A stretch of DNA of 55,855 bases. Source: Labilithrix sp. (GTDB taxonomy: Bacteria; Myxococcota_A; Polyangia; Polyangiales; Polyangiaceae). Shown here in pieces: positions 7,371-35,630 of the stretch. The notes below the pieces were generated by a model, which was not told the DNA's origin, ran no database searches, and saw only the letters and a program-made list of their open reading frames with translations. The stretch lies in assembly GCA_019637105.1 (NCBI GenBank), contig JAHBWF010000036.1, positions 1-55,855 on the forward strand, written 5' to 3'. The position numbers and the translations under genes are program-made. Positions within the stretch are counted from its first letter, which is position 1, and every line of letters begins with the position of its first letter.

Positions 7371-7549
7371 GACCGTTCTCCGCCCCCGCGCTCGTCGCCT
7401 TCGAAGGGCAGCCGCGCGACGGGGTCATACGCCGGCGCTCTCCGCTTCATCGTCACGAAGAGCACGGTGAGGAACACGACGAGGAAGAGGAAGAGCGCGC
7501 ACAGCGGCAAGATCAAGAGCGGGCTCCTCGCGAGCAGCTCGGATTTCAT
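7367..7549 (-). CDS. ccoQ: CcoQ-like small membrane subunit
   Basis: A 60-residue protein with one strong membrane helix (LLILPLCALFLFLVVFLTVL) followed by a basic then acidic tail (YDPVARLPFEGDE), matching the size, position and tail character of CcoQ, which stabilises the cbb3 complex. It sits between ccoNO and ccoP with ATGA overlaps on both sides. Assignment rests mostly on context because CcoQ proteins are poorly conserved. Confidence 0.8.
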   Translation of the reverse strand: MKSELLARSPLLILPLCALFLFLVVFLTVLFVTMKRRAPAYDPVARLPFEGDERGGGERS

Positions 7550-9912
7550 TTCGTGGTCTCCTTCGTGCTGGGCTCCTGCATCGAGACGCCCTCGGTGGCG
7601 CCCTTGCTCGGCTCGGGCTTCTTCCCGAGCCGCTGCAGGTACGCGATGACGGCGATCATCTGCGTGTCGGGCTCGACCTCGGCGCCGTCCTTGGCGAGCT
7701 CGGCGACGATCGCGCCGGCCTGCGCCCGCGCGTCCGCCTCGGCGTCGCGCATCTCGTCGGCCGTGTAGGGGACGCCTACCTTCGAGAGCGCGTGCATCTT
7801 GTCGCCCGTCCGCGTGAGGTCGAGCCGCGCGCCTTCGAGGTGCGCGTACGGCGGCATGTTGGAGCCCGCGGTGATCGCGCGCGGATCGACGAGGTGGCGG
7901 TAGTGCCAGAGGTGGGGGTACTTGCCGCCCTCGCGCGCGAGATCGGGGCCGGTGCGCTTGCTGCCCCACTGGAAGGGGTGGTCGTACACCGACTCGGCGA
8001 GCGTCGACGGGTCGCCGTAGCGCACCGTCTCGAAGCGCATCGGGCGGATCATCTGCGAGTGGCAGGTGTAGCAACCCTCGGCGATGAAGACGTCGCGCCC
8101 CTCGAGCTCGAGCGCGCGGTACGGCTTCGCGTCGACGGCCTCGACCGGCTTCACGATCAGCGCGGGGACGATCTCGGCGACGCCGCCGGCGAGGACCGCG
8201 AGCCCGGCGAGCACGGTGAAGAGGAGCGCGCGGCCCTCGAGGATGCGGTGGAACGGGGCGCCCCCGGACCTCCGCGCGTGCTGGATCGCCAGCACGCCGA
8301 AGAGCGCGACGACGAACGCGACGATGAGGAAGAGCGGGCTCGCGAAGGCGTTCGACGCCATGCCCGCGCCCGCGAGGCCGAGCACCACGACGGTGAGGAC
8401 GATCGGCCGCGAGAAGATCACGTCGCGCCACGGCACCTCGGGGGCGGGAGCGAGCGGGACGACGTCGACCTTCGTCGTGACGACCTTGGCCGTCAGCCCG
8501 GTGCGGACGAGGTTGTACCCCATCATCACCATGCCCAGCAGGTACATCGAGCCGCCGATGAGGCGCATCCAGTACATCGGGCGGATCGCGATGAGCGTCT
8601 CCACGAACGTCGGGTACATGAGCGAGCCGTCCGGGTTGGTCGCGCGCCACATCAAGCCCTGGTTCACGCCGCTCACCCACATCGCGACCATGTAGAGGAG
8701 GATCCCGAACGTCCCGATCCAGAAGTGCAGGTCGGCGAGGCGGCGCGAGTACAAGGGGCGCCCCGAGAGTCGCGGCACGAGGAAGTAGAACATCCCCGCG
8801 GCCATGAAGCCGTTCCAGCCGAGCGCGCCGGAGTGCACGTGGCCGATGATCCAGTCGGTGTAGTGCGCGAGCCCCGAGACGCTCTTGATCGAGAGGAGCG
8901 GCCCCTCGAACGTCGCCATGCCGTAGAACGTCACGCCGGCGGCCAGGAACTTGAGCACCGGGTCCTCGCGGACCTTCGACCAGCCGCCGCGCAGGGTGAG
9001 CAGGCCGTTCAGCATCCCGCCCCAGCTCGGCGCCCACAGCATCAAGCTGAAGATCATGCCGAGCGTCTGCGCCCAGTCGGGCAGCGCCGTGTTGAGCAGG
9101 TGGTGCGGCCCCGCCCAGATGTAGACGAAGATCAGCGCCCAGAAGTGGATGATGCTGAGCCGGTAGCTGTAGACCGGGCGCCCCGCCGCCTTCGGCAGGT
9201 AGTAGTACATGATGCCGAGCACCGGCGTGGTCAGGAAGAAGGCGACGGCGTTGTGCCCGTACCACCACTGCACCAGCGCGTCCTGGGCGCCGCCGTAGAC
9301 CGAGTAGCTCTTGAGCGTCCCGCCGATGACGGGGATCGCGAGCGAGTTGACGACGTGGAGGATCGCGACGGTCACGATCGTCGCGATGTAGAACCAGATC
9401 GCGACGTAGAGGTGCTTCTCGTTCCGCCGGGCGATCGTCCAGAAGAAGTTGATCGCGAAGAGCACCCAGACGAGCGTGATCGCGACGTCGATCGGCCACT
9501 CGAGCTCCGCGTACTCCTTGCCCTGCGTCAGCCCGAGCGGGAGCGTGACGACGGCGGAGACGATGATGAGCTGCCAGCCCCAGAAGTGGATCTTCGAGAG
9601 CAGGTCGCTCGCCGTCCGCGTCTTCAAGAGGCGCTGCGTCGAGTGGTAGATCCCGGCGAAGATCATGTTGCCCACGAACGCGAAGATCACGGCGTTCGTG
9701 TGGAGCGGCCGGAGGCGGCCGAAGCCGAGCGTCGCGTGGACGTTCGCGGGCGCCCACGCGAGCTGGAGGGCGACGACGACGCCGACGAGCATGCCGACGA
9801 TGCCCCACAGGACCGACGCGGCCATGAAGCGCATCGGCGTCGCGTCGTCGTATTCGATGCGCTGCGCACGGAGCGGCGGCGCGGTCTCGGAGGTCGCGGT
9901 GGTCGAGGTCAT
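7546..9912 (-). CDS. ccoNO: Fused cbb3 oxidase subunits CcoN and CcoO
   Basis: 788 residues. Residues 1 to about 490 are the 12-helix haem-copper catalytic subunit CcoN, with haem/copper-ligand histidines in VQWWYGHNAVAF, WAGPHHLLN and IGHVHSGALGWNG. After a linker and two helices, residues about 580-788 are the monohaem CcoO subunit, with GCYTCHSQMIRPMRFE and the distal Met region SNMPPYAHL. In most bacteria these are separate genes; here one continuous frame joins them without a stop. The enzyme reduces oxygen at low concentration and pumps protons. Both ends overlap neighbouring genes by four bases. Confidence 0.96.
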   Translation of the reverse strand: MTSTTATSETAPPLRAQRIEYDDATPMRFMAASVLWGIVGMLVGVVVALQLAWAPANVHATLGFGRLRPLHTNAVIFAFVGNMIFAGIYHSTQRLLKTRTASDLLSKIHFWGWQLIIVSAVVTLPLGLTQGKEYAELEWPIDVAITLVWVLFAINFFWTIARRNEKHLYVAIWFYIATIVTVAILHVVNSLAIPVIGGTLKSYSVYGGAQDALVQWWYGHNAVAFFLTTPVLGIMYYYLPKAAGRPVYSYRLSIIHFWALIFVYIWAGPHHLLNTALPDWAQTLGMIFSLMLWAPSWGGMLNGLLTLRGGWSKVREDPVLKFLAAGVTFYGMATFEGPLLSIKSVSGLAHYTDWIIGHVHSGALGWNGFMAAGMFYFLVPRLSGRPLYSRRLADLHFWIGTFGILLYMVAMWVSGVNQGLMWRATNPDGSLMYPTFVETLIAIRPMYWMRLIGGSMYLLGMVMMGYNLVRTGLTAKVVTTKVDVVPLAPAPEVPWRDVIFSRPIVLTVVVLGLAGAGMASNAFASPLFLIVAFVVALFGVLAIQHARRSGGAPFHRILEGRALLFTVLAGLAVLAGGVAEIVPALIVKPVEAVDAKPYRALELEGRDVFIAEGCYTCHSQMIRPMRFETVRYGDPSTLAESVYDHPFQWGSKRTGPDLAREGGKYPHLWHYRHLVDPRAITAGSNMPPYAHLEGARLDLTRTGDKMHALSKVGVPYTADEMRDAEADARAQAGAIVAELAKDGAEVEPDTQMIAVIAYLQRLGKKPEPSKGATEGVSMQEPSTKETTK

Positions 9913-22168: not shown

Positions 22169-23848
22169 ATGGCACGCGCGATGCTCGTCCTTCCGTCGAT
22201 GGTCGCCGCACCGACACCGACGCACGAAGAGGTCTGGACCGTCCGCCGACGAATGGTGGACGACCTGCTCGCGGAGCTCCGCGATCGCGCCCGTCGCGCG
22301 CGCGATCGGCGCGACGTGAAGCTGATCGAGACCCACATCTCGTGGGTGTTGCTCGGGCCGGAGGTCTACAAGATCAAGAAGCCCGTGACGCTGCCGTTCC
22401 TCGACTTCGCGTCCTTCGAGGTGCGCGAGCGCGCGTGCCGGGCGGAGGTCCGCGTCAACCGCAGGCTCGCGCCGCGCACGTACCTCGGCGTCGTCCCGAT
22501 CCGGCGTCGCTCCGACGGTCGCTTCACGCTGCAGAGCGGGGGCGGCGCGATCGTCGAGTGGGCGGTCCAGATGACCCGCCTCGACGAGGCGCGCCGCGCG
22601 GACGCGCTCCTCGAGGCGGGGAAGCTGCGCCGCGAGCAGATCGACGCGCTGGCGCAGGCGATCGCGCGCTTCCACGCCGACGCGGCGGGCGGGCCGCGCG
22701 TGGCGCGCGGCGGTCTCCCCGAGCTCGTCGAGCGCAACGTCCGCGACAATTTCGACGCGCTCCGCGGCGCGGGCGGCGCGTTCGTCCCCGAGGAGGCGCT
22801 GGCCGAGATCGAGCGCTGGCAGCTCGCGTTCGTGCGCCGGCACCGCGACGTCTTCGAGGAGCGCATGCTCGCGGGCGCCGTCCGCGACGGGCACGGCGAC
22901 CTCCGGCTCGAGCACGTCTTCCTCCACGCCGCCGACCTCGACTTCGAGGTGATCGACGGGATCGAGTTCGACGAGCGCTATCGGTTCGCGGACGTCTGCG
23001 CCGACGTCGCGTTCCTGGCGATGGACCTCGCCCGGCTCGGACGGGTCGACCTCGCCGAGCGCTTCGTCGCGACGTACGCGCGCGCGGCGAACGACTTCGA
23101 CCTGTACCGCGTCCTCGACTTCTACGAGAGCTACCGCGCCTGCGTCCGCGCCAAGATCGCCGCCTCGGCCGCGGCGAAGGCCGGCGCCCCCGAGCCCGTC
23201 GCCGCGGCCGCGCGCGCGGAGGCGCGGCGCTACCTCCTGCTCGCTCAAGCGGCGCGGCGGCGGAGCCTGCTCGAGCCGGCGCTCGTCGCCGTGGCCGGCG
23301 GCATCGCGTCGGGGAAGAGCACGCTCGCGGAGCGCCTCGGCGAGGCGCTGAGCGCCCCGGTGGTCGACGCGGACCGCACGCGAAAGTACATGATCGGACT
23401 CGCCCCGACGGCCCACGCCGCCGCCCGAGCGTGGGAGGGCGCGTACGACCGCGCGTTCAGCGCGCGCGTCTACGCCGAGGTCCTGCGGCGCGCCGAGAGC
23501 GTCCTCGCGTCCGGCAGGCCGGTGATCGTCGACGCGTCGTTCCGCAGCGTCGAGGCGCGCGCCGCGGCGCGCGCGATCGCCGAGAAGCACGGCGTCCCCT
23601 TCAGGCTGATCGAGTGCGTGGCGCCCGTCGAGCTCTGCCGCGCTCGACTGGAGGCGCGGCAGCGCTCGAAGGCGCACGTCTCGGACGCGACTCCGGAGAT
23701 CCTCGACGCCTTCGTCGCCGGCTACGAGCCCATCGTCGAGATCGATCCGGCGGAGCACGTCCGCGTCGACACCTCGGCCTCGGTCGAGGACGCGCTCACG
23801 CAGGCGACGCGCGCGATCGCGACGTGGCCGCGAGGCTTCGTCGCCTGA
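22169..23848 (+). CDS. Bifunctional aminoglycoside-phosphotransferase-like / P-loop kinase protein
   Basis: Up to 559 residues. The N-terminal half begins with the family motif LIETHISWVLL and KIKKPVTLPFLDF and carries the kinase catalytic motif GHGDLRLEHVF with a later Asp in VIDGIEFDERYRFADV. The C-terminal third is a P-loop kinase-like domain with GGIASGKSTLAERL and an AAA-type nucleotide fold. Homologues with this two-part plan are known but their substrate is not. ATG 22253 (MVDDLLAEL) fits homologues better than ATG 22169, particularly if the sigma-54 site at 22170 is used. It follows the NtrC gene on the same strand. Confidence 0.85.
   Translation: MARAMLVLPSMVAAPTPTHEEVWTVRRRMVDDLLAELRDRARRARDRRDVKLIETHISWVLLGPEVYKIKKPVTLPFLDFASFEVRERACRAEVRVNRRLAPRTYLGVVPIRRRSDGRFTLQSGGGAIVEWAVQMTRLDEARRADALLEAGKLRREQIDALAQAIARFHADAAGGPRVARGGLPELVERNVRDNFDALRGAGGAFVPEEALAEIERWQLAFVRRHRDVFEERMLAGAVRDGHGDLRLEHVFLHAADLDFEVIDGIEFDERYRFADVCADVAFLAMDLARLGRVDLAERFVATYARAANDFDLYRVLDFYESYRACVRAKIAASAAAKAGAPEPVAAAARAEARRYLLLAQAARRRSLLEPALVAVAGGIASGKSTLAERLGEALSAPVVDADRTRKYMIGLAPTAHAAARAWEGAYDRAFSARVYAEVLRRAESVLASGRPVIVDASFRSVEARAAARAIAEKHGVPFRLIECVAPVELCRARLEARQRSKAHVSDATPEILDAFVAGYEPIVEIDPAEHVRVDTSASVEDALTQATRAIATWPRGFVA
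22170..22185 (+). promoter_or_regulatory. Candidate sigma-54 promoter before the phosphotransferase/ATPase gene
   Basis: TGGCACG-N4-ATGC matches the sigma-54 consensus TGGCACG-N4-TTGC except for one base. It lies 78 bases after the NtrC gene stop. It covers the first codons of the longest version of the downstream gene; if it is a real promoter, translation must begin later, for example at ATG 22253, and the leader would be about 55 bases. Confidence 0.45.
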
Positions 23849-26555: not shown

Positions 26556-27014
26556 ATGAGCTCGATGATCTCGAAGGTCGAAGTTCGAAAGCGCATCTCC
26601 AGGGACCACGCCTTGCTCAGGGGGCTCTGCCGCGCGTTGATCGCCGTGGCGCGCGCGGCGGAGCGCGACGAGCGGCACCGCCCCGTGATCCGAGACGTGC
26701 TCGGGCAGCTCTGCGCCGAGGTCGACCGGCATTTCGAGTACGAGGAGGAGGTCATCGTCCCGCTCCTCCGCGAGGTCGACGCGTGGGGGCCCGTGCGCGT
26801 CGAGCGGCTCTACCGGGATCACGCCGAGCAGCGCAGCGTGCTCGTCGCGCTCGCCGAAGACGCCGAGGACGGCATGCGGAACGTCGAGGACCTCGCGGAC
26901 GAGATCGTCTGGTTCTTCCAGCGCTTCGAGCAGGACATGGCCGCGGAGGAGGAGCGCCTGCTCAGCGCCGAGGACCTCGGCGCCGAGCCGATCGTCGACC
27001 AGATCGACGGCTGA
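26556..27014 (+). CDS. Hemerythrin HHE-domain protein
   Basis: 152 residues, all helical. Iron-ligand candidates are in ISRDHALLRGL, DRHFEYEEEVIVPLL, YRDHAEQRSVL and the C-terminal EQDMAAEEERLL, the pattern of HHE hemerythrin-like proteins that bind a di-iron centre and respond to oxygen or NO. ATG 26556 has a strong AGGAGG six bases upstream and is preferred over an in-frame GTG at 26508. Position after a universal stress gene fits a redox stress role. Confidence 0.88.
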   Translation: MSSMISKVEVRKRISRDHALLRGLCRALIAVARAAERDERHRPVIRDVLGQLCAEVDRHFEYEEEVIVPLLREVDAWGPVRVERLYRDHAEQRSVLVALAEDAEDGMRNVEDLADEIVWFFQRFEQDMAAEEERLLSAEDLGAEPIVDQIDG

Positions 27015-27278
27015 TCAGCGCGCGTCGTCCTTCGCGTCCCGCGAGCGCAGCCGCCGCGCGAGCTGGAGGTCCCGCGCGATCGCCACGAGGTAGAGCGCGA
27101 ACGAGAGCGTGCCCAGCGCCTGGCCGAACGAGAGCGCGACGAGCACCGGCCACACCGTCGGGACGAAGACCGACGTGACCATGAAGGGGAGCGCGACGAG
27201 CCCGAGCACGCAGGCCGCGCGCACGAGGGTCTCGGTTCGGACGGCCTTCACCCTGGCCCAGGCTTCGGCGATCTTCAA
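27015..27278 (-). CDS. Small two-helix membrane protein coupled to the tetrahaem cytochrome
   Basis: 87 residues read from a TTG that overlaps the upstream cytochrome stop codon (TTGA); GTG 27251 is an alternative. Two hydrophobic helices (LVRAACVLGLVALPFMVTSV and VLVALSFGQALGTLSFALYL) are followed by a basic tail (RRLRSRDAKDD). No family is recognised. Coupling to the NapC/NirT-type gene suggests a membrane partner or stabilising subunit. The stop codon abuts the hemerythrin gene stop on the other strand. Confidence 0.6.
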   Translation of the reverse strand: MKIAEAWARVKAVRTETLVRAACVLGLVALPFMVTSVFVPTVWPVLVALSFGQALGTLSFALYLVAIARDLQLARRLRSRDAKDDAR

Positions 27279-27940
27279 TGCGCGGCTCCGGCGTCGAGCT
27301 CCTTGCCGAGCTTCGTCATGGGGTGGGCGTAGCCGTGGCACCCGGCGCTCGCGCACGAGACGGTCCCGCTGCGGACCGCCTCGAGCGACGAGGCGTGGTC
27401 GCCGATCGAGAGCCATCGCGGCGCGGTCGTCGTGTGGCAGGCCATGCAGTTGGCGTTGGGCAGCGGGCGGAGGATGCGGATGTCGTGCTTCGATTCTTCG
27501 AGCGGCATGTCGTGGTACTCGGTGAGGTAGAGGTAGACGTGGCGCATGCCGCCCGCCTTCGTCAGGACGTACCCGTACATCCCGTAGTCCTTGTGGCACG
27601 CGTAACAATTGTCTTTCCCGAAGCTGGTGTTCCGTGCGTGGATCGCGGCGAGCGACTGGCTTCGGGGGTCGTTCGAGTCCTCGGCGTGTGGTTCCATCAC
27701 ATGGCACGATCCGCAAAACGTGCGCGACTGGGTCGCGGCGAAGCCAGCGACGTTCGCCGTACCGGCGGACGTGATGGGGAAGACGCCGAGGCCGAGGAGC
27801 AGCCAGAGCTTCGTGTTCCGACCGCGCTCTCCGGAGAGCGGCGGCCGGCGCACGAGATGCATGCCGAGGACCCCCGCGGCCGCCACCGCGCTCGCCGCTG
27901 ACAGCCACCCGATCCAGTCGATCCCGCCTTCTGCGCTCAT
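27275..27940 (-). CDS. NapC/NirT-type membrane tetrahaem cytochrome c
   Basis: 221 residues: membrane anchors near residues 10-30 and 45-70 (LWLLLGLGVFPITSAG), then haem motifs CGSCH, CYACH, CMACH and the spaced CASAGCH (CX4CH). This is the quinol-dehydrogenase type (NapC, NrfH, CymA) that takes electrons from the membrane quinol pool and gives them to periplasmic partners. It is divergent from the beta-barrel gene of the multihaem cluster; their start codons overlap. It is the likely electron entry point of the predicted conduit. Confidence 0.88.
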   Translation of the reverse strand: MSAEGGIDWIGWLSAASAVAAAGVLGMHLVRRPPLSGERGRNTKLWLLLGLGVFPITSAGTANVAGFAATQSRTFCGSCHVMEPHAEDSNDPRSQSLAAIHARNTSFGKDNCYACHKDYGMYGYVLTKAGGMRHVYLYLTEYHDMPLEESKHDIRILRPLPNANCMACHTTTAPRWLSIGDHASSLEAVRSGTVSCASAGCHGYAHPMTKLGKELDAGAAH

Positions 27941-29156
27941 GTCGTCCCATCCTCGGAGCAAGATCGACGCCGCGCTCGTCCTCGTGACGGCTCTCTCGTG
28001 CGCGCGGTCGGCGAACGCCGAGCCGCTTCGACTTCGCGGCGACGCGCTCGTGCAGACGCGCTCGCCCGTCGGGTTGCTCGTCTTGCGCGGTGAGGACCGC
28101 TTGCGTCCATGGCTCGACGTGGAGAGTGTAACGTGGCTGGGCGCGACGGGGGCGTCGGAACCGATCGCGCCGACCGGCGACGTCCTGACCCTGTCGGTCC
28201 GCGCGCGCGACGCCGCCAGCGGCTCCGAGGTCCGCGCGGGCAGGATGCTCGTCACGATGGGCGCCGTGCGGCCCGTCCACGTCGACGGCGCGCGCGGGCT
28301 CGTCCGCGTCTTCGACGGCACCACGGTGGAGGCCTTCGGCGGCGTGCCGGTCGTCCGGCGCTTCGACTACGACCGATTCGACTGGACGGCGGGCGGGCGG
28401 CTCGGGCAGTCGATCGGCGACGTCGCGGCGTTCGGCGGCTCGTACGCGGTTCGCCGGCGGGGAGCGTCGCTCGACGACGAGGAGCTCGGCGCCGACTTCG
28501 CGCTCACCCCGGCGACGTGGCTCACCGCCGCGGGCCGGGCCGCGTTCGACGTCGTCTCCGGCGGCCCGACCGACGCGCTGGCCTCGGTCAGCGCGCAGAA
28601 GGACGACGTCCGCGGGGAGCTCTTCACGACCCACCGATCGCCCGGCCGGCTCTTGCCGCGCACGTCGCTGTTCTCGGTGCTGGGCGACTTCGCGGCGACG
28701 AGCACGGGCGCCACCGCGCGCTGGCGGGCGTTCCCGCGGCTCGAGCTCATCGCGACGGGGAGCGTGCAGGTGCAGGGCTCGGAGGTCGGAGGGCAGGGGC
28801 TCGGCCGCGCCACGCTCGCGCTCGACGACGAGTGGGCGGGGTCGGTCGGGCTCGAGGCGCGTCGGGTCGACTTCGCGGGGGCGCGCTGGGTGGGCGCCCG
28901 CGTCGTGGCGTCGCTGCCGCTCTCGGCCGCGCTCCGCGTCGCGACGGAGGTCGAGCTCGTCCGTCCGGACGATGCGCGCGGTCGCGGCTCGGTCTGGCCG
29001 TGGGCGCTCGGCGCGCTCGCGTGGACGTCGCCGCGCGGCTGGGAGATCGCCGGCGCGCTCGAGGCGTCGGCGGGGCCCGACAACCGCGAGTCGCTCCACG
29101 CGCTCGCGCGCGTCTCGTACGCGCTCGGCGAGCCGGCGCGGAGAGGATCGCCGTGA
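27939..29156 (+). CDS. Predicted outer-membrane beta-barrel (porin-cytochrome conduit candidate)
   Basis: 405 residues with a signal peptide (DAALVLVTALSCARSANA, cleavage before EP). The mature part shows alternating amphipathic strands with turn residues throughout (DWTAGGRLGQSIGDVAAFGG, WTSPRGWEIAGALEASAG) and no haem motif. It begins an operon with two multihaem cytochromes, linked by GTGA overlaps, as porin genes do in porin-cytochrome clusters. It shows no direct similarity to MtrB or OmbB that I can recognise, so the porin role is inferred from topology and context. Confidence 0.7.
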   Translation: MSSHPRSKIDAALVLVTALSCARSANAEPLRLRGDALVQTRSPVGLLVLRGEDRLRPWLDVESVTWLGATGASEPIAPTGDVLTLSVRARDAASGSEVRAGRMLVTMGAVRPVHVDGARGLVRVFDGTTVEAFGGVPVVRRFDYDRFDWTAGGRLGQSIGDVAAFGGSYAVRRRGASLDDEELGADFALTPATWLTAAGRAAFDVVSGGPTDALASVSAQKDDVRGELFTTHRSPGRLLPRTSLFSVLGDFAATSTGATARWRAFPRLELIATGSVQVQGSEVGGQGLGRATLALDDEWAGSVGLEARRVDFAGARWVGARVVASLPLSAALRVATEVELVRPDDARGRGSVWPWALGALAWTSPRGWEIAGALEASAGPDNRESLHALARVSYALGEPARRGSP

Positions 29157-30226
29157 GCCCGCTCCGGCGCCTGCTCGTGCTGGTGGTCTCGCTCTCGCTC
29201 GCGGCGTGCGCGGGCCTGCTCGGGATCAAGCCGCGCGACACGCAGCACCCGTTCGAGCACCGCGCCCACTCGCTCGCGGGGATCGCCTGCACGACGTGCC
29301 ACGAGGGCGTCGCCCGCGCGGGCGAAACCGGGCCGCTCCACCTCCCCGAGCCGGAAAAGTGCGTCGCGTGCCACGCGCGCCCCCACGACACGCGGCCCTG
29401 CGGCGGCTGCCACGGCCAGAGCCACACGCGCGAGGAGAACCGCCTCGCCCGCGAGCACCTGCGCTTCGCGCACGAGCGCCACGTCCCGAAGCTCGGCGGA
29501 CAGTGCGTCCCTTGCCACGCGGCGGCGGGCAAGGCGGAGCAGACGTCGCTTCGCCCGCCGATGGCTCAGTGTCTCGGCTGTCACACGCACCGAGACCAGT
29601 GGAAGACGCGCGAGTGCGACGGCTGTCACGTGGATCTCCCCGCCGAGCTCGCGCGTCCTTCGAGCCACGTCTTCCACGAGGGCGACTTCGTGCGCGAGCA
29701 CGGCGTCCGGGCGGCGTCCGCGAAGGACCTCTGCGCGACCTGCCACGGCGAGGACTTCTGCGCCGGCTGTCACGGCGTGACCGTCGCCGCGCTCCCGTGG
29801 CGGTTCGCCTTCGAGCGCCCGAGCCTGACGGGGCTCCACCGCGCCGGCTTCGCGTCGCGCCACTCCGAGGAGGCGCGCTCGAGCCCGGGCCTCTGCACGT
29901 CGTGCCACGACAGCGAGCGCTTCTGCCTCGACTGCCACGCCAAGCGCGGGCGCTCGGCGTTCGGCGCCGGCGGCGGCGCCCGGAGCCCGCACCCGCCCGA
30001 CTGGGTCCGCGCGCGCGGCGGCGAGCACGGACGGGCGGCGCGCATGGATCCGCTCTCCTGCGCGAGCTGCCACGGCGGCGCGGGCGAGGCGCTCTGCGTC
30101 GGCTGTCACCGCGTCGGAGGTCCGGGCGGGAACCCCCACGGCCGGGGCTTCTCGAGCGCGCTCGACGCGACGCGGGACGAGCCGTGCCGCCAGTGCCACG
30201 GAGCGGCCGGGGGGCGCGGTCCGTGA
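29153..30226 (+). CDS. 13-haem c-type cytochrome lipoprotein
   Basis: 357 residues from a GTG that overlaps the barrel gene stop. Signal peptide with lipobox LSLAACAG (Cys near residue 19). Thirteen CxxCH motifs follow: CTTCH, CVACH, CGGCH, CVPCH, CLGCH, CDGCH, CATCH, CAGCH, CTSCH, CLDCH, CASCH, CVGCH, CRQCH. Many extra His residues (HPFEHRAH, EERHVPK-type spacing) can act as distal ligands. It would lie on the periplasmic face of the outer membrane or inside the barrel. No named family is certain; the N-terminal part resembles class III / NrfB-type multihaem cytochromes. Confidence 0.9.
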   Translation: MSPLRRLLVLVVSLSLAACAGLLGIKPRDTQHPFEHRAHSLAGIACTTCHEGVARAGETGPLHLPEPEKCVACHARPHDTRPCGGCHGQSHTREENRLAREHLRFAHERHVPKLGGQCVPCHAAAGKAEQTSLRPPMAQCLGCHTHRDQWKTRECDGCHVDLPAELARPSSHVFHEGDFVREHGVRAASAKDLCATCHGEDFCAGCHGVTVAALPWRFAFERPSLTGLHRAGFASRHSEEARSSPGLCTSCHDSERFCLDCHAKRGRSAFGAGGGARSPHPPDWVRARGGEHGRAARMDPLSCASCHGGAGEALCVGCHRVGGPGGNPHGRGFSSALDATRDEPCRQCHGAAGGRGP

Positions 30227-32217
30227 GAGGTCGACGCGCCCTCGCGCTCCTCGTGCTCGCGGCGGCGGCGGCCGCGCTCCTCGCGGTGTTCGCGATCCAG
30301 GAGCGCACGCCGCCGCGCTCGCCGACGGAGCAGGTGCCCGTGATCTGGCAGACGGCGCGCGAGGCGCCGATGCACGTCTTTCACGTCGGCGAGAAGAAGA
30401 TCGCCTGCGTCGAGTGCCACGCGAGCCCGGACGCCGCGCCGACGGAGGAGGCGTGCGCGAAGTGCCACGCCGCGGAGACGCAGACCGCGCATCGAGGCGC
30501 GGGGGACTTCACGACGACGTGCCTGTCGTGCCACGCGTTCGGGGCGGGCGGGCCTCCGAAGACGTGCAACGCGTGCCACGCGTCGGCGACGCGCGTCGCC
30601 GCCGCGCCGGCGCTCGAGCACCACGCGGGCGCCGAGCTCCCGTGCGGGGCGTGCCACAGCGTGCACGGCAGCGAGCGCGCCGTGCTCTCGGACTGCACGA
30701 CCTGCCACCGGGAGACGAGCGCCGTCCACGGAGGCTTCGAGGCGCGCGCGCGGGAGCAGGGCCTCGACGCGTCGATGGACCTCTCGCTCGACGCCGCCGT
30801 GCTCGCGTTCCTGCGAAGGCGGCGCGCGCCGATCGCGAGCCACGGCGCGCCCTCCGGAGGAGGCGGCGCGCCGATCGGAGAAGGCGGCGTCCCAGCGCGC
30901 GCCACGTCGCGGGGGTGGCGGCTCGTCGCGGCCGATCTCACGCCACGCTGTCGGGGCAGGTCTGCGGCGCGCCACGCGCCCCGCTCGGAAAGGAGCGCGC
31001 GCGGGACGTGCGAGGATGCCACGTCGACGCGCACCGCGCCCCGCCGCGCGCCGGCGCGCTCGGACATCACGCTCGCGTCCCGCGCCCCCGCGATCGCGCC
31101 ACGAGGCCCGCGCGTCGCCGGGCACGAGGCCTGCGTCACGTGCCACGAGCCGCACCGCGCCCGCCGCGCCGACGTGCGCGCCTGCGAGGGGTGCCACGCC
31201 GATCGCCGCGCGGCCGGTCAGGTGGCCGGTCACGCCGCGTGCTCCGGGTGTCACGCCCCGCACGCGCCCGCCGAGGCGAAGGCGAGCTGCTCCGCGACCT
31301 GCCACGCGAACGTCGTCACCCTCGCCGCGCCGCGCGTGGCGGCCCACGCGTCCTGCACGAGCTGCCACGATCCGCATCGCCCGGACGCGTCGGCGGGGCA
31401 AGCCTGCGTACGGTGTCACGAGAGCACGAAGCCTTCGCACCCGGCGACGGCGTCGGCGAAGGGAGCGCAGGCGTGCACCGGCTGTCACGCGCCTCACGGC
31501 GGCCGCGCCGCGTCGCCGGGCGCGGCCGCCGCGGCGCACGGTCCGCGCGCGCCGGCTCACGGCGCCACGGCGGCGGCGTGCACGTCGTGCCACACGAACG
31601 CCAAGGACGACCGCGCGCTCCACGCCAAGGGGACCGCCTGTACGTCGTGCCACGCCCCGCACGCGTTCCGCCTCGCGGGCGCGGGGGCGTCGCTCTGCGC
31701 CGGCTGCCACGCGAAGGAGGCGAAGGCGACCACGGCGCGCCCCGGCCACGCGAGCTGCGCCGGCTGTCACGGCGCAGCGCACGCTCCGAACGCCAAGCCC
31801 GCGTGCAAGAGCTGCCACGTCGAAGAGGCGCGGACCGCCCCCGCCGGTCACGCGTCGTGCACGAGCTGCCACGAGGCGCACTCGGGCTCGCTCGGCGGCC
31901 GCGCGTCGTGCACGAGCTGCCACGCGAACAAGGCGACGGCGCTCCACGCGAACGTCGCCCAGGGCTGCGCCACGTGCCACCGACCGCACGGCCCCAAGGG
32001 CGTCGCGCGGCCCGCGCCGTGCGCCTCGTGCCACACGAAGCCGTCGCTCCAGGGCCTCCACTCCGTCGCGGCGCACGCGTCGTGCGACACGTGCCACAGC
32101 GCGCACGCGCCGCCGCGCTCCGATCGCGCGAGCTGCACGGGCTCGTGCCACGTCGACAAGCGAAATCATCAGCCGGAGGCGAAGGTCTGCAAGGGCTGCC
32201 ACCTCTTTCGGCAGTAG
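30223..32217 (+). CDS. Large multihaem cytochrome c with about 25 haem motifs
   Basis: 664 residues from GTG overlapping the previous stop. A hydrophobic N-terminal segment (ALLVLAAAAAALLAVFAIQ) is a signal or membrane anchor. Six CxxCH motifs lie in residues about 60-170. Residues about 180-300 have none. The remaining 360 residues carry 17 CxxCH and two CX3CH motifs (CSATCH, CTGSCH) in a repeating HASCTSCH-x-PH pattern, reminiscent of doubled-CxxCH proteins. In the motif-free stretch, halves of haem motifs occur in different frames (30963-31019), so indels may have removed sites. The last residues end CKGCHLFRQ. Confidence 0.88.
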   Translation: MRGRRALALLVLAAAAAALLAVFAIQERTPPRSPTEQVPVIWQTAREAPMHVFHVGEKKIACVECHASPDAAPTEEACAKCHAAETQTAHRGAGDFTTTCLSCHAFGAGGPPKTCNACHASATRVAAAPALEHHAGAELPCGACHSVHGSERAVLSDCTTCHRETSAVHGGFEARAREQGLDASMDLSLDAAVLAFLRRRRAPIASHGAPSGGGGAPIGEGGVPARATSRGWRLVAADLTPRCRGRSAARHAPRSERSARGTCEDATSTRTAPRRAPARSDITLASRAPAIAPRGPRVAGHEACVTCHEPHRARRADVRACEGCHADRRAAGQVAGHAACSGCHAPHAPAEAKASCSATCHANVVTLAAPRVAAHASCTSCHDPHRPDASAGQACVRCHESTKPSHPATASAKGAQACTGCHAPHGGRAASPGAAAAAHGPRAPAHGATAAACTSCHTNAKDDRALHAKGTACTSCHAPHAFRLAGAGASLCAGCHAKEAKATTARPGHASCAGCHGAAHAPNAKPACKSCHVEEARTAPAGHASCTSCHEAHSGSLGGRASCTSCHANKATALHANVAQGCATCHRPHGPKGVARPAPCASCHTKPSLQGLHSVAAHASCDTCHSAHAPPRSDRASCTGSCHVDKRNHQPEAKVCKGCHLFRQ

Positions 32218-32377
32218 ACGCGCGCGCGATCGCGCGCGAGGTGCGTACGGCGCTGGGCATGCGTACGGCGTTGGGCGCGTACGACGAGCCTCAGCGCGCG
32301 GCGCGCGTGCTCACGAGCGTCGCCCCCGAGTGTCGGTCGGGGGCGACGGTCTCGTGCCTCCGGAGAGACGCGCGACG

Positions 32378-33898
32378 TCAGGGGGACACGCGATCGATGT
32401 TCCCGTCGACGTGGGAGAGCCGTCCGGCGGCGGTCATCGCCAGGCCGTCGGTTCGACCTTCGTGGCAGATGGCTCCGCCGCACGCCGTGCTCTGCGCGTG
32501 GGGCGGAGGCGGCGGAGCTCCGTGGCACGACGCGCACGAGGCCGTCGCCGTGTCGGTCCAACGCGGCGCGGGCCGCGTCGCGCCGACGCCCTCGTGGCAG
32601 TATGTCCCGGCGCAGGTCTGGGTCGTGGGATCGTACGACGCGCGCCGGCCGCCGCGTCCGGCGAGCCCGGTCAGGCGGACGCCCGCGCGGCCTTTGCCTT
32701 CGGGGTGGCGATCGGCGCCGCTCGGGACCTCGTGGCACGTCTCGCACGCGATCGGACGCGCGCTCTTCGGATCGGCGTGCGCCCGGTGAGCGCCGGTCCG
32801 CGGCCACGGGTCGTCGCCTTCGCCGTGGCACGCTCCGCAGCGCCCGCTCCCGTCGCCGAGGTCGACCTTCCCGTTGGCGTGGAGGACCGGCGCCGTGAGG
32901 GCCGTCCCGTCGGCGTTGGCCTCGCGGTGGCAGCTCGTGCACGCGCCGCGCGGATGATCGGCCGGCGGAGACGCGTGGCAGTCGTTGCACGTCATGGCCG
33001 GATCGCCCCACGCGGGCAGAGGCCTCGCCCCGCCGCGCGCGTGACACGTCCCCGTGCAGCTCTTGCGGCTCGGATCGTAGCGCGCCTCGCGGCCGGCGAC
33101 CGCGAAGTCGAACCAGACGTCGACCCATCCGTTGGCGTGCACGCCTCGCGGCTCGCCCGAGGTCGGCGTGGGATGGCAGGTCGAGCACGGCAGCCCCGCC
33201 GCGCGCGACGCGCTCGGCTCCGCGTGCGCGGCGTGCGCGCGGTCGATCGGGTCGTCGGGAAAGAAGCAACGGCTGCGCGGCGGGTGCGCCCGCGCGCCCT
33301 CGCCGTGGCAGGTCCCGCAGCCGAGCGGGCCGTTCGACGCGGTGTGGCAGCTCGTGCACGACGGGGCGCCGGGAGCGGTCAGCGCGACGCCGGCGGGGCG
33401 CGCGGCGCCGCCGGCGTGGCACGTCCCGCACGCGTCGGCGTCGTTCGCGTCGAGCATCGGAGCGTAGCCCTTGCTCCGGAGGTAGCGGCCGTGACTCTCG
33501 GGAGAGCGAGGATCCGCGAAGCCGGCCGCGTGGACGCCTCCGCCGCTCCGCGGAGCCTGGGCCGCGATCCACGCGGCGAGCAGCTCGCGCTCCGCCGGCG
33601 TGACGAGCCCGGCGTGGTCGGGCCGCTCGAGCGCGGCCAGCAAGGGCGCCGGCGCGTCCGCGCGCGCGCGCGTCGCCGGCGCTCCGTCCGCCGTGCAGCC
33701 GATCGCGCCCAGGTAGGAGTCGGCGGCCCAGCCGCCGGCCGGCGCAGAACCTGCGTGGCAGCGCAGACACCGCGCCGCGAGCAGCGCCTCGATCCGGCTC
33801 GTGTAGCTCGGGGCGTCGGGGAGCGCGCGGGAGGTCTCGCACGCCGCGAAGGCGCCGCCGAGCACGGCCGTGGCGAGCAGGAGCGAGAGCGGCCGCAT
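32378..33898 (-). CDS. 13-haem lipoprotein of the CxxCH/CX4CH-rich type
   Basis: 506 residues. Signal peptide with a lipobox-like FAACE (Cys near residue 19). The first motif, CLRCH, is in a region resembling c-type cytochrome domains. Nine further CxxCH motifs and three spaced motifs (CTGTCH, CAGTYCH, CGGAICH) follow, with repeated blocks such as YDP-x-CTGTCH and YDPTTQTCAGTYCHEG. This is the pattern of the CxxxxCH/CxxCH-domain outer-membrane cytochromes known from Geobacter. It converges with the large cytochrome gene (160-base gap) and is divergent, by 58 bases, from the collagen-like cytochrome. Confidence 0.88.
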   Translation of the reverse strand: MRPLSLLLATAVLGGAFAACETSRALPDAPSYTSRIEALLAARCLRCHAGSAPAGGWAADSYLGAIGCTADGAPATRARADAPAPLLAALERPDHAGLVTPAERELLAAWIAAQAPRSGGGVHAAGFADPRSPESHGRYLRSKGYAPMLDANDADACGTCHAGGAARPAGVALTAPGAPSCTSCHTASNGPLGCGTCHGEGARAHPPRSRCFFPDDPIDRAHAAHAEPSASRAAGLPCSTCHPTPTSGEPRGVHANGWVDVWFDFAVAGREARYDPSRKSCTGTCHARGGARPLPAWGDPAMTCNDCHASPPADHPRGACTSCHREANADGTALTAPVLHANGKVDLGDGSGRCGACHGEGDDPWPRTGAHRAHADPKSARPIACETCHEVPSGADRHPEGKGRAGVRLTGLAGRGGRRASYDPTTQTCAGTYCHEGVGATRPAPRWTDTATASCASCHGAPPPPPHAQSTACGGAICHEGRTDGLAMTAAGRLSHVDGNIDRVSP

Positions 33899-33956
33899 TG
33901 GCCCGGTGAATGCAAGCTCGAGCCCAGCGCGCGCTCTCGCGCCGTCACGGAGGATC

Positions 33957-35273
33957 ATGGCTCTCTCTCGCTTCATCGGACTCGCGCTCGTCGTCGGGGT
34001 GGGCGCCAGCCTCGGGCTGGCCGCCTGTGGTACGGGCGACGACGGCGCGAAGGGGGAGCCCGGCGCGACCGGCCCCGCCGGGCCGGTCGGTCCCGCAGGG
34101 CCCCCGGGCGCGCAAGGCACCCCTGGAACCGTGGCCGACGGCGGGGGCGTCCTCGGCGGAGCGTGCACGACGCCGTGTCATACGTTCGGCGGCGTCGTCG
34201 ATCAATGGCGCTTCAGCAATCACTCGCATCCGCAGAACACCGAGATCGGCGTCGGCACGTGCGGCAACTGCCACGGCGTCGACGGTCTGGAGCAGCGCGT
34301 CGCGAACAAGTATACCGTCGCGCCCGACGCGGGCGTACCGACGGACGTGTCGAAGGGGCACATCAACTTCACGGCGGCCTCGGGCGTGGTCACCGAGATC
34401 GGCTACGGCGGCGCCACGACGATCGGCCGGATCCACTGCTCGACCTGCCACGCCTTCGACTCCACCAACGATCCGCACGTCACGGGGAAGTACGTCGCCG
34501 GGCAGGCGCCGATCCGCGTCCCCGGCGGGGTCGGAGACACCGCCATCCTCGAGAAGACCGAAGGGCCGTCGCCCACCACGTCGACGGGGCAGTCCGTCGC
34601 GTACCGCGCCGGCAACGTCTGCGTCTTCTGCCACAAGTCGCGGAAGGACGTCACGTTCTTCATCGCGGCGTCGAACCCGCTGTCGTCGACGCGCTGGGGG
34701 CCGCACTACGCGTCGCAGGCCGACATCTACTCGGGCAAGGGCGGCTATCACTTCGCGTCGGCCGCCTACAGCAGCTCGGCCCACGCGACGATCGCCAACG
34801 CCTGCGTCGCGTGTCACATGCAGCCGGTCGCGGCGAACGGCAACGTGCCGGACCACACGATGAAGCCGAGCGTCGCGCTCTGCAAGACGTGCCACACGCA
34901 GTACACCGGCACCACGTTCGACGTGCAGGGCGGTCAGGCGCTCGTTCGGAACGCGCTCCGCGAGCTGCAGAGCGCGCTGAACGCCGCCGGGATGCTCACG
35001 CGCTCGTCGACCGCGCCCTACGCGGCGCTCTCCGAAGAGGAGATCGCCGACAATCAGTTCCACCTCGACTACGTGCGCCCCGGCGGTGCGCCCGGCGGCG
35101 GCAACGTCGTCGCGAACGGTCCGACGGCGGGTGCATTGTACAACTACTTGATCGTGGCCCGGAGCAAGGACTTCGGCGTCCACAACCCCACCTACGCGAA
35201 GCAGCTCCTCTGGGATTCGATCCGCCAGATCAAGGGCGTCGATCCGACGAGCCTCCCCAGCCGTCCTCAATGA
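33957..35273 (+). CDS. Hexahaem cytochrome lipoprotein with a collagen-like Gly-X-Y segment
   Basis: 438 residues. Signal peptide with lipobox LGLAACG. Directly after it come about ten Gly-X-Y triplets (GAKGEPGATGPAGPVG and on), then CTTPCH (CX3CH) and five CxxCH motifs (CGNCH, CSTCH, CVFCH, CVACH, CKTCH) in the central domain. The C-terminal 150 residues are motif-free and helical (EEEIADNQFHLDYVRPGG). The collagen-like part could form a trimeric stalk that holds the haem domain away from the membrane; that is inference. The ATG has GGAGG three bases upstream. Confidence 0.88.
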   Translation: MALSRFIGLALVVGVGASLGLAACGTGDDGAKGEPGATGPAGPVGPAGPPGAQGTPGTVADGGGVLGGACTTPCHTFGGVVDQWRFSNHSHPQNTEIGVGTCGNCHGVDGLEQRVANKYTVAPDAGVPTDVSKGHINFTAASGVVTEIGYGGATTIGRIHCSTCHAFDSTNDPHVTGKYVAGQAPIRVPGGVGDTAILEKTEGPSPTTSTGQSVAYRAGNVCVFCHKSRKDVTFFIAASNPLSSTRWGPHYASQADIYSGKGGYHFASAAYSSSAHATIANACVACHMQPVAANGNVPDHTMKPSVALCKTCHTQYTGTTFDVQGGQALVRNALRELQSALNAAGMLTRSSTAPYAALSEEEIADNQFHLDYVRPGGAPGGGNVVANGPTAGALYNYLIVARSKDFGVHNPTYAKQLLWDSIRQIKGVDPTSLPSRPQ

Positions 35274-35299
35274 AGGACGGGCGCCCGAGGCGGAGCTAA

Positions 35300-35402
35300 G
35301 GCGCAACTCGGCTGCGCCGATCCTGGAACGTCAGGAGCCGTGAGCAGAGATCAGGCTCCTGACCGGAGATTCGCGCCGCTCGCCCATCGGGCGGCGCGAA
35401 TC
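35300..35402. terminator. Three successive hairpins after the cytochrome cluster
   Basis: Three perfect inverted repeats lie in a row: 6-bp arms at 35300-35305/35313-35318, 9-bp arms at 35331-35339/35354-35362 and 12-bp arms at 35368-35379/35391-35402 (loop 11). The last is the strongest and may end transcription from both sides. No T-run follows. The block marks the change from the cytochrome cluster to accessory-type genes. Confidence 0.55.
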
Positions 35403-35408
35403 GGAGGC

Positions 35409-35630
35409 TCAGATCAACCGATCACGGCTATAGGTCAGGCTGCTGTACGGCTGCAATTTGCGAGTCCGTGAACCGTTACTTTCCATGGGCAGTAGGCTCA
35501 CCGTCGCCGTCACGCCCTTCTCGCGGACGCGCACGCGCAGCGTGAGCTGCGGACCATTCTGCTCGACGGCGAGCGCGACAAGCTGGGCGCCGGGCACCCA
35601 GCGCTTGAGGGCGCCGCGCACGTTAGACAC
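35409..35630 (-). CDS. Hypothetical 73-residue protein
   Basis: Read from GTG 35630: VSNVRGALKRWVPGAQLVAL then alternating strands (LTLRVRVREKGVTATVSLL) ending SSLTYSRDRLI. Upstream in another frame a short piece (RRGPWRTNFDAGLELLRH) ends in a TAA that overlaps this GTG, so the locus may be the tail of an eroded two-gene unit. I do not recognise either part. Composition is less extreme in GC than the cytochrome genes. Confidence 0.4.
   Translation of the reverse strand: MSNVRGALKRWVPGAQLVALAVEQNGPQLTLRVRVREKGVTATVSLLPMESNGSRTRKLQPYSSLTYSRDRLI

Follow-up and report, generated by a model that had tools for sequence, protein, structure and literature searches.

A candidate porin-cytochrome electron conduit in Labilithrix and its relatives among the Myxococcota

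Among the described systems closest to the locus studied here, a seven-gene block on a Labilithrix contig, is the MtrCAB system of Shewanella, which is fed by the NapC-type protein CymA. A wider class, the porin-cytochrome (Pcc) clusters, was defined by Shi and colleagues (PMC4245776); in the available text of that work, the Anaeromyxobacter cluster consists of a porin and one cytochrome with 12-14 haems, and an outer-membrane cytochrome is present in most Pcc clusters. Moreover, a periplasm-bridging cytochrome has already been proposed for PCC3, with a median of 21 haems and a low ratio of amino acids to haem, according to the portions of PMC5566968 at hand. A wastewater survey records, in its accessible sections, multihaem proteins in some Myxococcota, Anaeromyxobacter included (PMC11495043), and Anaeromyxobacter is the sole myxobacterial genus named with a porin-cytochrome conduit in the literature covered, part of it in excerpt. 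The block analyzed here is described for neither Labilithrix nor the Polyangiaceae among the literature matches listed, a set mostly without subscription journals.

We analyzed a window of 55,855 bases, one whole contig (C265) of a Labilithrix host genome of 8.45 Mb that is 91.5% complete. Between positions 27,015 and 35,273 it holds seven genes which, judging from their sequences and those of their relatives, likely encode an electron conduit of porin-cytochrome type that spans the cell envelope; among the explanations considered, this one fits best by a wide margin. The first-pass annotation had proposed an outer-membrane electron conduit at this place, a prediction of function that gains support from a predicted barrel, from the conserved pairing of the barrel with a cytochrome, and from the OmcA/MtrC-type proteins found in 15 of 50 related loci. 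The elements it had listed were all recovered where it had placed them, and are as follows.

27015-27278, minus strand: small membrane protein of 87 amino acids from TTG, with two hydrophobic segments (sequence; homologues).
27275-27940, minus strand: NapC/NirT-type tetrahaem membrane cytochrome of 221 amino acids, a likely quinol dehydrogenase (matches to PF03264 and NrfH 2j7a).
27939-29156, plus strand: outer-membrane beta-barrel of 405 amino acids, with 22 predicted strands and a signal helix (structure prediction; PDB alignments).
29153-30226, plus strand: CYT13, a 13-haem lipoprotein of 357 amino acids, candidate wire through or against the barrel (motifs; lipobox; 3ov0 match).
30223-32217, plus strand: CYT25, with 25 haem motifs and an N-terminal hydrophobic anchor, candidate periplasmic bridge (motifs; relatives).
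About 30811-31060, plus strand: eleven gaps of 1-2 bases in CYT25 relative to the related locus L053, with two haem motifs fewer (sequence comparison).
32378-33898, minus strand: LIP13, a lipoprotein with 13 haem motifs in CxxxxCH/CxxCH domains, candidate surface cytochrome (TIGR01904; PF09698).
33957-35273, plus strand: LIP6, a lipoprotein with a collagen-like stretch and 6 haem motifs, candidate cytochrome for the surface terminus (motifs; relatives).

The five cytochromes carry 61 haem motifs, of which 54 are CxxCH and 7 have longer spacers, in agreement with the earlier estimate of about 61. These divide, CxxCH plus longer, as 3+1 in NapC, 13 in CYT13, 23+2 in CYT25, 10+3 in LIP13 and 5+1 in LIP6, and the same proteins shuffled by residue (500 shuffles each) gave means of 0.04-1.08 motifs and a maximum of 6. 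The nearest named relatives of the window are metagenome-assembled genomes labelled Labilithrix, the barrel of L053 being 95% identical (L-numbers denote relatives' loci compared with the window). All seven genes are under purifying selection, with ratios of nonsynonymous to synonymous substitution (dN/dS) of 0.07-0.29 against L053, 0.14-0.36 against L055 and 0.29-0.55 against L057. The GTGA overlaps said to join the barrel and two cytochromes are present at 29,153-29,156 (barrel/CYT13) and 30,223-30,226 (CYT13/CYT25, the latter taken from the frames). The divergent ATG codons of NapC and the barrel share CATG at 27,938-27,941, and therefore no room for a promoter is left between them; in relatives the NapC-barrel gap is small too, with 3-42 bases in L035, L033 and L034 as drawn by a crude gene caller. 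As this caller misses genes, locus counts were taken from a six-frame profile scan instead. No sigma-70 promoter or terminator pattern was found within 26,900-35,500, and sigma-54 sites were rejected, with 40 matches against 37.4 expected.

Central to the proposed conduit is the protein at 27,939-29,156, earlier called barrel-like, which structure prediction models as a 22-stranded barrel; its first strand, of low confidence, falls in a stretch whose predicted local distance difference test (pLDDT) score is below 50. The model aligns with outer-membrane barrels of the PDB; MtrB is not in the 50 matches listed for these alignments, an absence that constitutes no evidence. Sequence searches with the barrel gave neither a Pfam or NCBIfam family (E ≤ 1) nor a PDB sequence (E ≤ 10). 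The MtrB/PioB family PF11854 matched neither the barrel nor 16 homologues at E ≤ 1, and was also unmatched in the host genome, in a scan in which the control genomes likewise all stayed under the cut-off. No plasmid-borne homologues of the barrel and CYT13 were found. The barrel alignment covers 40 of the 50 loci, leaving out L059, L065, L066, L068, L070 and L071, which contain stops at the match end, and L098 and L100-L102, which are partial.

The immediate neighbor of the barrel, CYT13, packs 13 CxxCH motifs into 357 amino acids, or about 27 per haem. Across 40 aligned rows (2 of 41, L056 and L060, being left out for an unclear start), the lipobox Cys19-Ala20 is invariant and, besides the 13 motif histidines, there are 13 more invariant histidines and a 14th conserved at 95% or above, which matches the need of thirteen bis-histidine haems. 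Its profile matches the multihaem cytochrome of PDB entry 3ov0 (E 5.2e-15), the dodecahaem GSU1996 of Geobacter, an extended protein some 12 nm in length; TIGR03508 (MtrA/DmsE) gave no match to CYT13 at E ≤ 1. That the barrel-cytochrome pairing would be kept in relatives is borne out, as CYT13 lies immediately downstream of the barrel in 46 of the 50 named loci, with a gap of -12 to 72 bases, and in all 26 of a further set. The four loci that lack a directly adjacent CYT13 are L076, L100 and L102, which end at a contig edge, and L099, which holds a fragment.

We then considered how widely these genes occur together. The barrel was detected in 24 of 59 near-relative genomes, the host included (E ≤ 0.01), among them 9 of 12 other genomes of the genus, and in 62 of 377 genomes of the phylum, again with the host, of which 22 are strong matches (E ≤ 3.5e-70) and 40 weaker ones (E at least 1.4e-33). 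Scanning named genomes resulted in the 50 barrel loci. Myxobacteria and Deltaproteobacteria account for most of their labels; L086 is filed under Actinomycetes, L100 and L102 under Proteobacteria, and L076 and L078 as uncultured bacterium. The bin behind L086 was probably given the wrong label, because the barrel tree nests this locus among Myxococcota. CYT13 was found in 47 of these loci, NapC, the small protein and CYT25 in 41 each, LIP13 in 33, and LIP6 and OmcA/MtrC-type proteins in 15 each, short contigs depressing the counts of all genes other than CYT13; the LIP6 call of L081 is a 10-motif frame at a contig end, which makes 14 the safe LIP6 count. All 26 further loci, 24 of them from the weak tier, encode a LIP13-type protein. 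The 24 distant loci were hand-picked, 18 from the 40 weak-tier phylum genomes and 6 from the near-relative scan. Because they keep the LIP13-type protein, the barrel and CYT13, the core of the system, by sequence comparison, is a LIP13-type cytochrome, the barrel and a 12-14-haem lipoprotein, and NapC and CYT25 are mainly part of the window's own type, outside the universal core. The retention of this core across the phylum suggests that relatives of the window can exchange electrons outside the cell.

Candidates for the outward-facing end are LIP13 and LIP6, both of which carry lipobox-like signals in the window. LIP13 matches TIGR01904 (E 5.2e-20) and PF09698, both above cut-off, and belongs with the CxxxxCH/CxxCH family named after Geobacter; distant loci L134, L135, L138, L140 and L150 have LIP13-type proteins of 36 motifs immediately upstream of the barrel. 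LIP6 contains a collagen-like stretch; it may be an OmcA/MtrC protein in shortened form, profile comparison giving 96.5% probability over 94 columns only, around the haem motifs. The OmcA/MtrC-type proteins of the 15 loci all match TIGR03507 (best E 5.7e-128); among the scores shown, those of L092, L083 and L094 pass the curated cut-off. In 12 of these 15 loci the decahaem protein is the first gene of a run including NapC and the barrel; these 12, among the 50, are colinear, with the order decahaem, LIP13, NapC, small protein, barrel, then CYT13 and CYT25 where the contig continues. No OmcA/MtrC protein was found in the window's own genome at its 91.5% completeness, and LIP6 and OmcA/MtrC occur together in none of the 50 loci. 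On the barrel tree, in which 12 of 41 rows fall in no group, the three arrangements require 3 changes, where shuffling gave a mean of 11.8, and OmcA/MtrC arrangements occur on either side of the midpoint root. That LIP6 took the place of OmcA/MtrC within the clade of the window fits this tree, short of being proven by it. The underlying alignments hold 13 of 14 LIP6 proteins (L060 left out) and 15 of 21 decahaem frames, those from named genomes.

At the inner membrane, the NapC protein matches PF03264 (E 5.2e-10, 39.8 bits, cut-off 24.1) and NrfH 2j7a (E 7.7e-6). A single N-terminal membrane helix is a feature of NapC, NirT and NrfH; here, hydropathy alone counted two hydrophobic segments before the first NapC haem in 18 of 27 proteins, three in 6 and one in 3. 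Homologues of the small protein show two or more such segments in 33 of 34 cases, and the comparison suggests two membrane segments in each of the two proteins. With relatives compared, the small protein probably starts at the TTG at 27,278, overlapping the NapC stop. NapC lies on the strand of the barrel in 12 loci and on the opposite one in 29, and the pair has therefore been inverted at least once. In L074 (13,280-16,018), genes for cytochrome b, a Rieske protein and a cytochrome with nine haems adjoin the conduit; this set is an alternative quinol module in that locus and supports the conduit reading. By gene order, L081 and L086 carry the set too.

CYT25 is the candidate for the distance between the two membranes. 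It has a median of 21.6 amino acids per haem; of 35 proteins compared, 33 have a hydrophobic segment at the N-terminus and 7 a lipobox-like pattern under a simple rule; as the anchor varies among clades, we infer a role between the membranes. It matches TIGR03508 weakly (E 1.4e-4, 21.4 bits against a cut-off of 192). The protein has 27 motifs in L053, L054, L055, L057, L058, L060 and L061, and 25 in L056; in the window, the eleven gaps relative to L053 fall within about 250 bases, cancel in frame and remove two motifs, and this cluster is probably a sequence or assembly error, a real change being possible as well. At the spacing of 3ov0, and taking its length as given above, 25-27 haems would reach about 25 nm. 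The CYT25 alignment was kept small, with 16 of 34 homologues.

The order of transfer that we infer would begin with the quinol pool, which would give electrons to, or take them from, the tetrahaem NapC and the small membrane protein that partners it. CYT25, anchored and with 25/27 haems, would carry them over the periplasm, CYT13, placed in or under the 22-stranded barrel, would carry them through the outer membrane, and LIP13 and LIP6 would exchange them with an outside partner, the direction of flow and the substrate being presumed as well. More tentatively, and with rather more doubt than belief, we put forward that the block forms a wire that is anchored all the way from the quinol pool to the surface, in which CYT25 would span the periplasm without soluble carriers, the tips would be interchangeable and the core would represent a phylum-wide Myxococcota conduit family. 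In such a wire, most clades would hold CYT25 by its N-terminal membrane segment and a few perhaps by lipid, the protein being periplasmic either way, and the surface tips would be OmcA/MtrC decahaem or collagen-like hexahaem proteins.

Several observations weigh against a conduit. At the thresholds used, no barrel was found in 35 of 58 other near relatives, 3 of 12 same-genus genomes among them, nor in 315 of 377 genomes of the phylum. The fetched stretch lacks NapC in 9 of the 50 named loci, and in the 24 distant loci NapC occurs once and CYT25 five times. Moreover, the predicted structure of CYT13 is poor (pLDDT 61.2, predicted template modelling score 0.43), and LIP6 is weakly similar to nitrite reductases.

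Among other explanations, the one that fares best, and that we still consider unlikely, is that the conduit serves electron uptake from Fe(II), minerals or partner cells, feeding an oxidase such as cbb3. NapC-type proteins are able to work in both directions, and cbb3 genes (fused CcoN-CcoO, CcoP, CcoG and a CcoI-like ATPase) lie on the same contig at 5.3-12.5 kb. These are 14.5 kb from the conduit, so that the first-pass description of the conduit as next to the cbb3 block was too strong, and the window's cbb3 proteins were unmatched in the stretches of 25 relatives (8.5-19.9 kb, about 10 kb on each side), which is a weak test; OmcA/MtrC proteins, in turn, are best known as reductases. Distinctly less probable is that the barrel works as a pore for exporting or assembling surface cytochromes and holds no wire. 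Usher pores are among its PDB alignments and form the top Foldseek rows (E 1.4e-8, template modelling score 0.46 by query length), and in distant relatives LIP13-type proteins with up to 36 motifs directly precede the barrel; however, likeness to ushers and receptors is generic among barrels, LIP13 is on the opposite strand from the barrel in the window, and it is the 12-14-haem lipoprotein that neighbors the barrel most closely and most constantly, the two genes overlapping in the window. Finally, a respiratory system with LIP6 or LIP13 as the reductase of a soluble acceptor (nitrite or another nitrogen or sulfur compound) at the outer membrane is very improbable. In its favor, the LIP6 profile matches NrfA and octahaem nitrite reductases (E 4e-4 to 6e-3), and LIP6 matches PF02335 (E 8.9e-5, 22.1 bits, under the cut-off of 24.1). 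Against it, the match covers about 50-104 profile positions in the surroundings of haem motifs, LIP6 is above no curated cut-off, and OmcA/MtrC stands in its place in other relatives.

Regarding the remainder of the window, positions 7,546-9,912 encode the fused CcoN and CcoO domains in one cbb3 protein of 788 amino acids. An NtrC-type response regulator lies at 20.7-22.1 kb, with a CBS protein and a hemerythrin closer to the conduit, where universal-stress-like proteins were also judged present by eye. A protein of 559 amino acids at 22,169-23,848 has a C-terminal AAA_33/zeta-toxin-like kinase domain and is kept in L028, L029, L031 and L032. The genes at 16.7-27.0 kb are complete in L029 only, near-complete in L028, and partial in L030-L033 and L039. 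At 1-522, an open reading frame cut at the contig end has two CxxCH motifs.

Overall, the locus and its relatives point to an extension of external electron exchange to Labilithrix-like, Kofleriaceae-labelled and Sandaracinaceae-labelled bacteria, and the co-occurring gene set is usable as a marker. Moreover, the crossing of the periplasm by electrons becomes a testable question, because the candidate bridge shares an operon with the barrel.

When compared to known systems, the locus resembles MtrCAB/OmcA of Shewanella in its scheme of a barrel, a wire cytochrome and a surface decahaem, with OmcA/MtrC-family proteins carried by relatives and not by the window. Membership in MtrCAB was rejected, as the barrel, with 22 predicted strands, has no MtrB_PioB (PF11854) match, CYT13, with 13 haems, has no MtrA/DmsE (TIGR03508) match, and the genome has no OmcA/MtrC. 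PCC3 of iron oxidizers and others shares a large periplasmic cytochrome with few amino acids per haem, proposed to span the periplasm; it differs, as far as the accessible text of PMC5566968 goes, in porins of up to 42 predicted strands and in having, instead of NapC, an inner-membrane protein with five helices and presumed binding of haem b, and no such HX13H protein is present among the seven genes of the block, to which the search was confined. OetABI of Geobacter and of the partner bacteria of anaerobic methanotrophic archaea (ANME) is alike, by its description in the available part of PMC10553843, in joining a barrel, a periplasmic cytochrome and a lipoprotein cytochrome of the surface, more extracellular cytochromes being encoded close by. 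There is likeness in make-up to the Pcc class (OmbB-OmaB-OmcB of Geobacter; two-gene clusters of Anaeromyxobacter and Kuenenia), which pairs a porin of 18-22 strands with a neighboring cytochrome of 5-14 haems; in Anaeromyxobacter and Kuenenia this partner has 338-344 amino acids and 12-14 haems, against 357 and 13 for CYT13 (PMC4245776, from the text available). The window has a 13-haem cytochrome, presumably facing the periplasm, encoded by a gene overlapping that of the barrel, and judged by its make-up the locus is composed like the Pcc class. In contrast to Pcc, the partner cytochrome is a lipoprotein, and the block also includes NapC with its small membrane protein, the 25/27-haem CYT25 and, as lipoproteins of surface type, LIP13 and LIP6. 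The suggestion of a new type of conduit is the weaker part of the first-pass reading: the make-up fits the broad Pcc class, and a periplasmic bridge was already proposed for PCC3. New here are the block of seven genes, a core that distant relatives share, the swapping of surface tips and a candidate for an anchored bridge.

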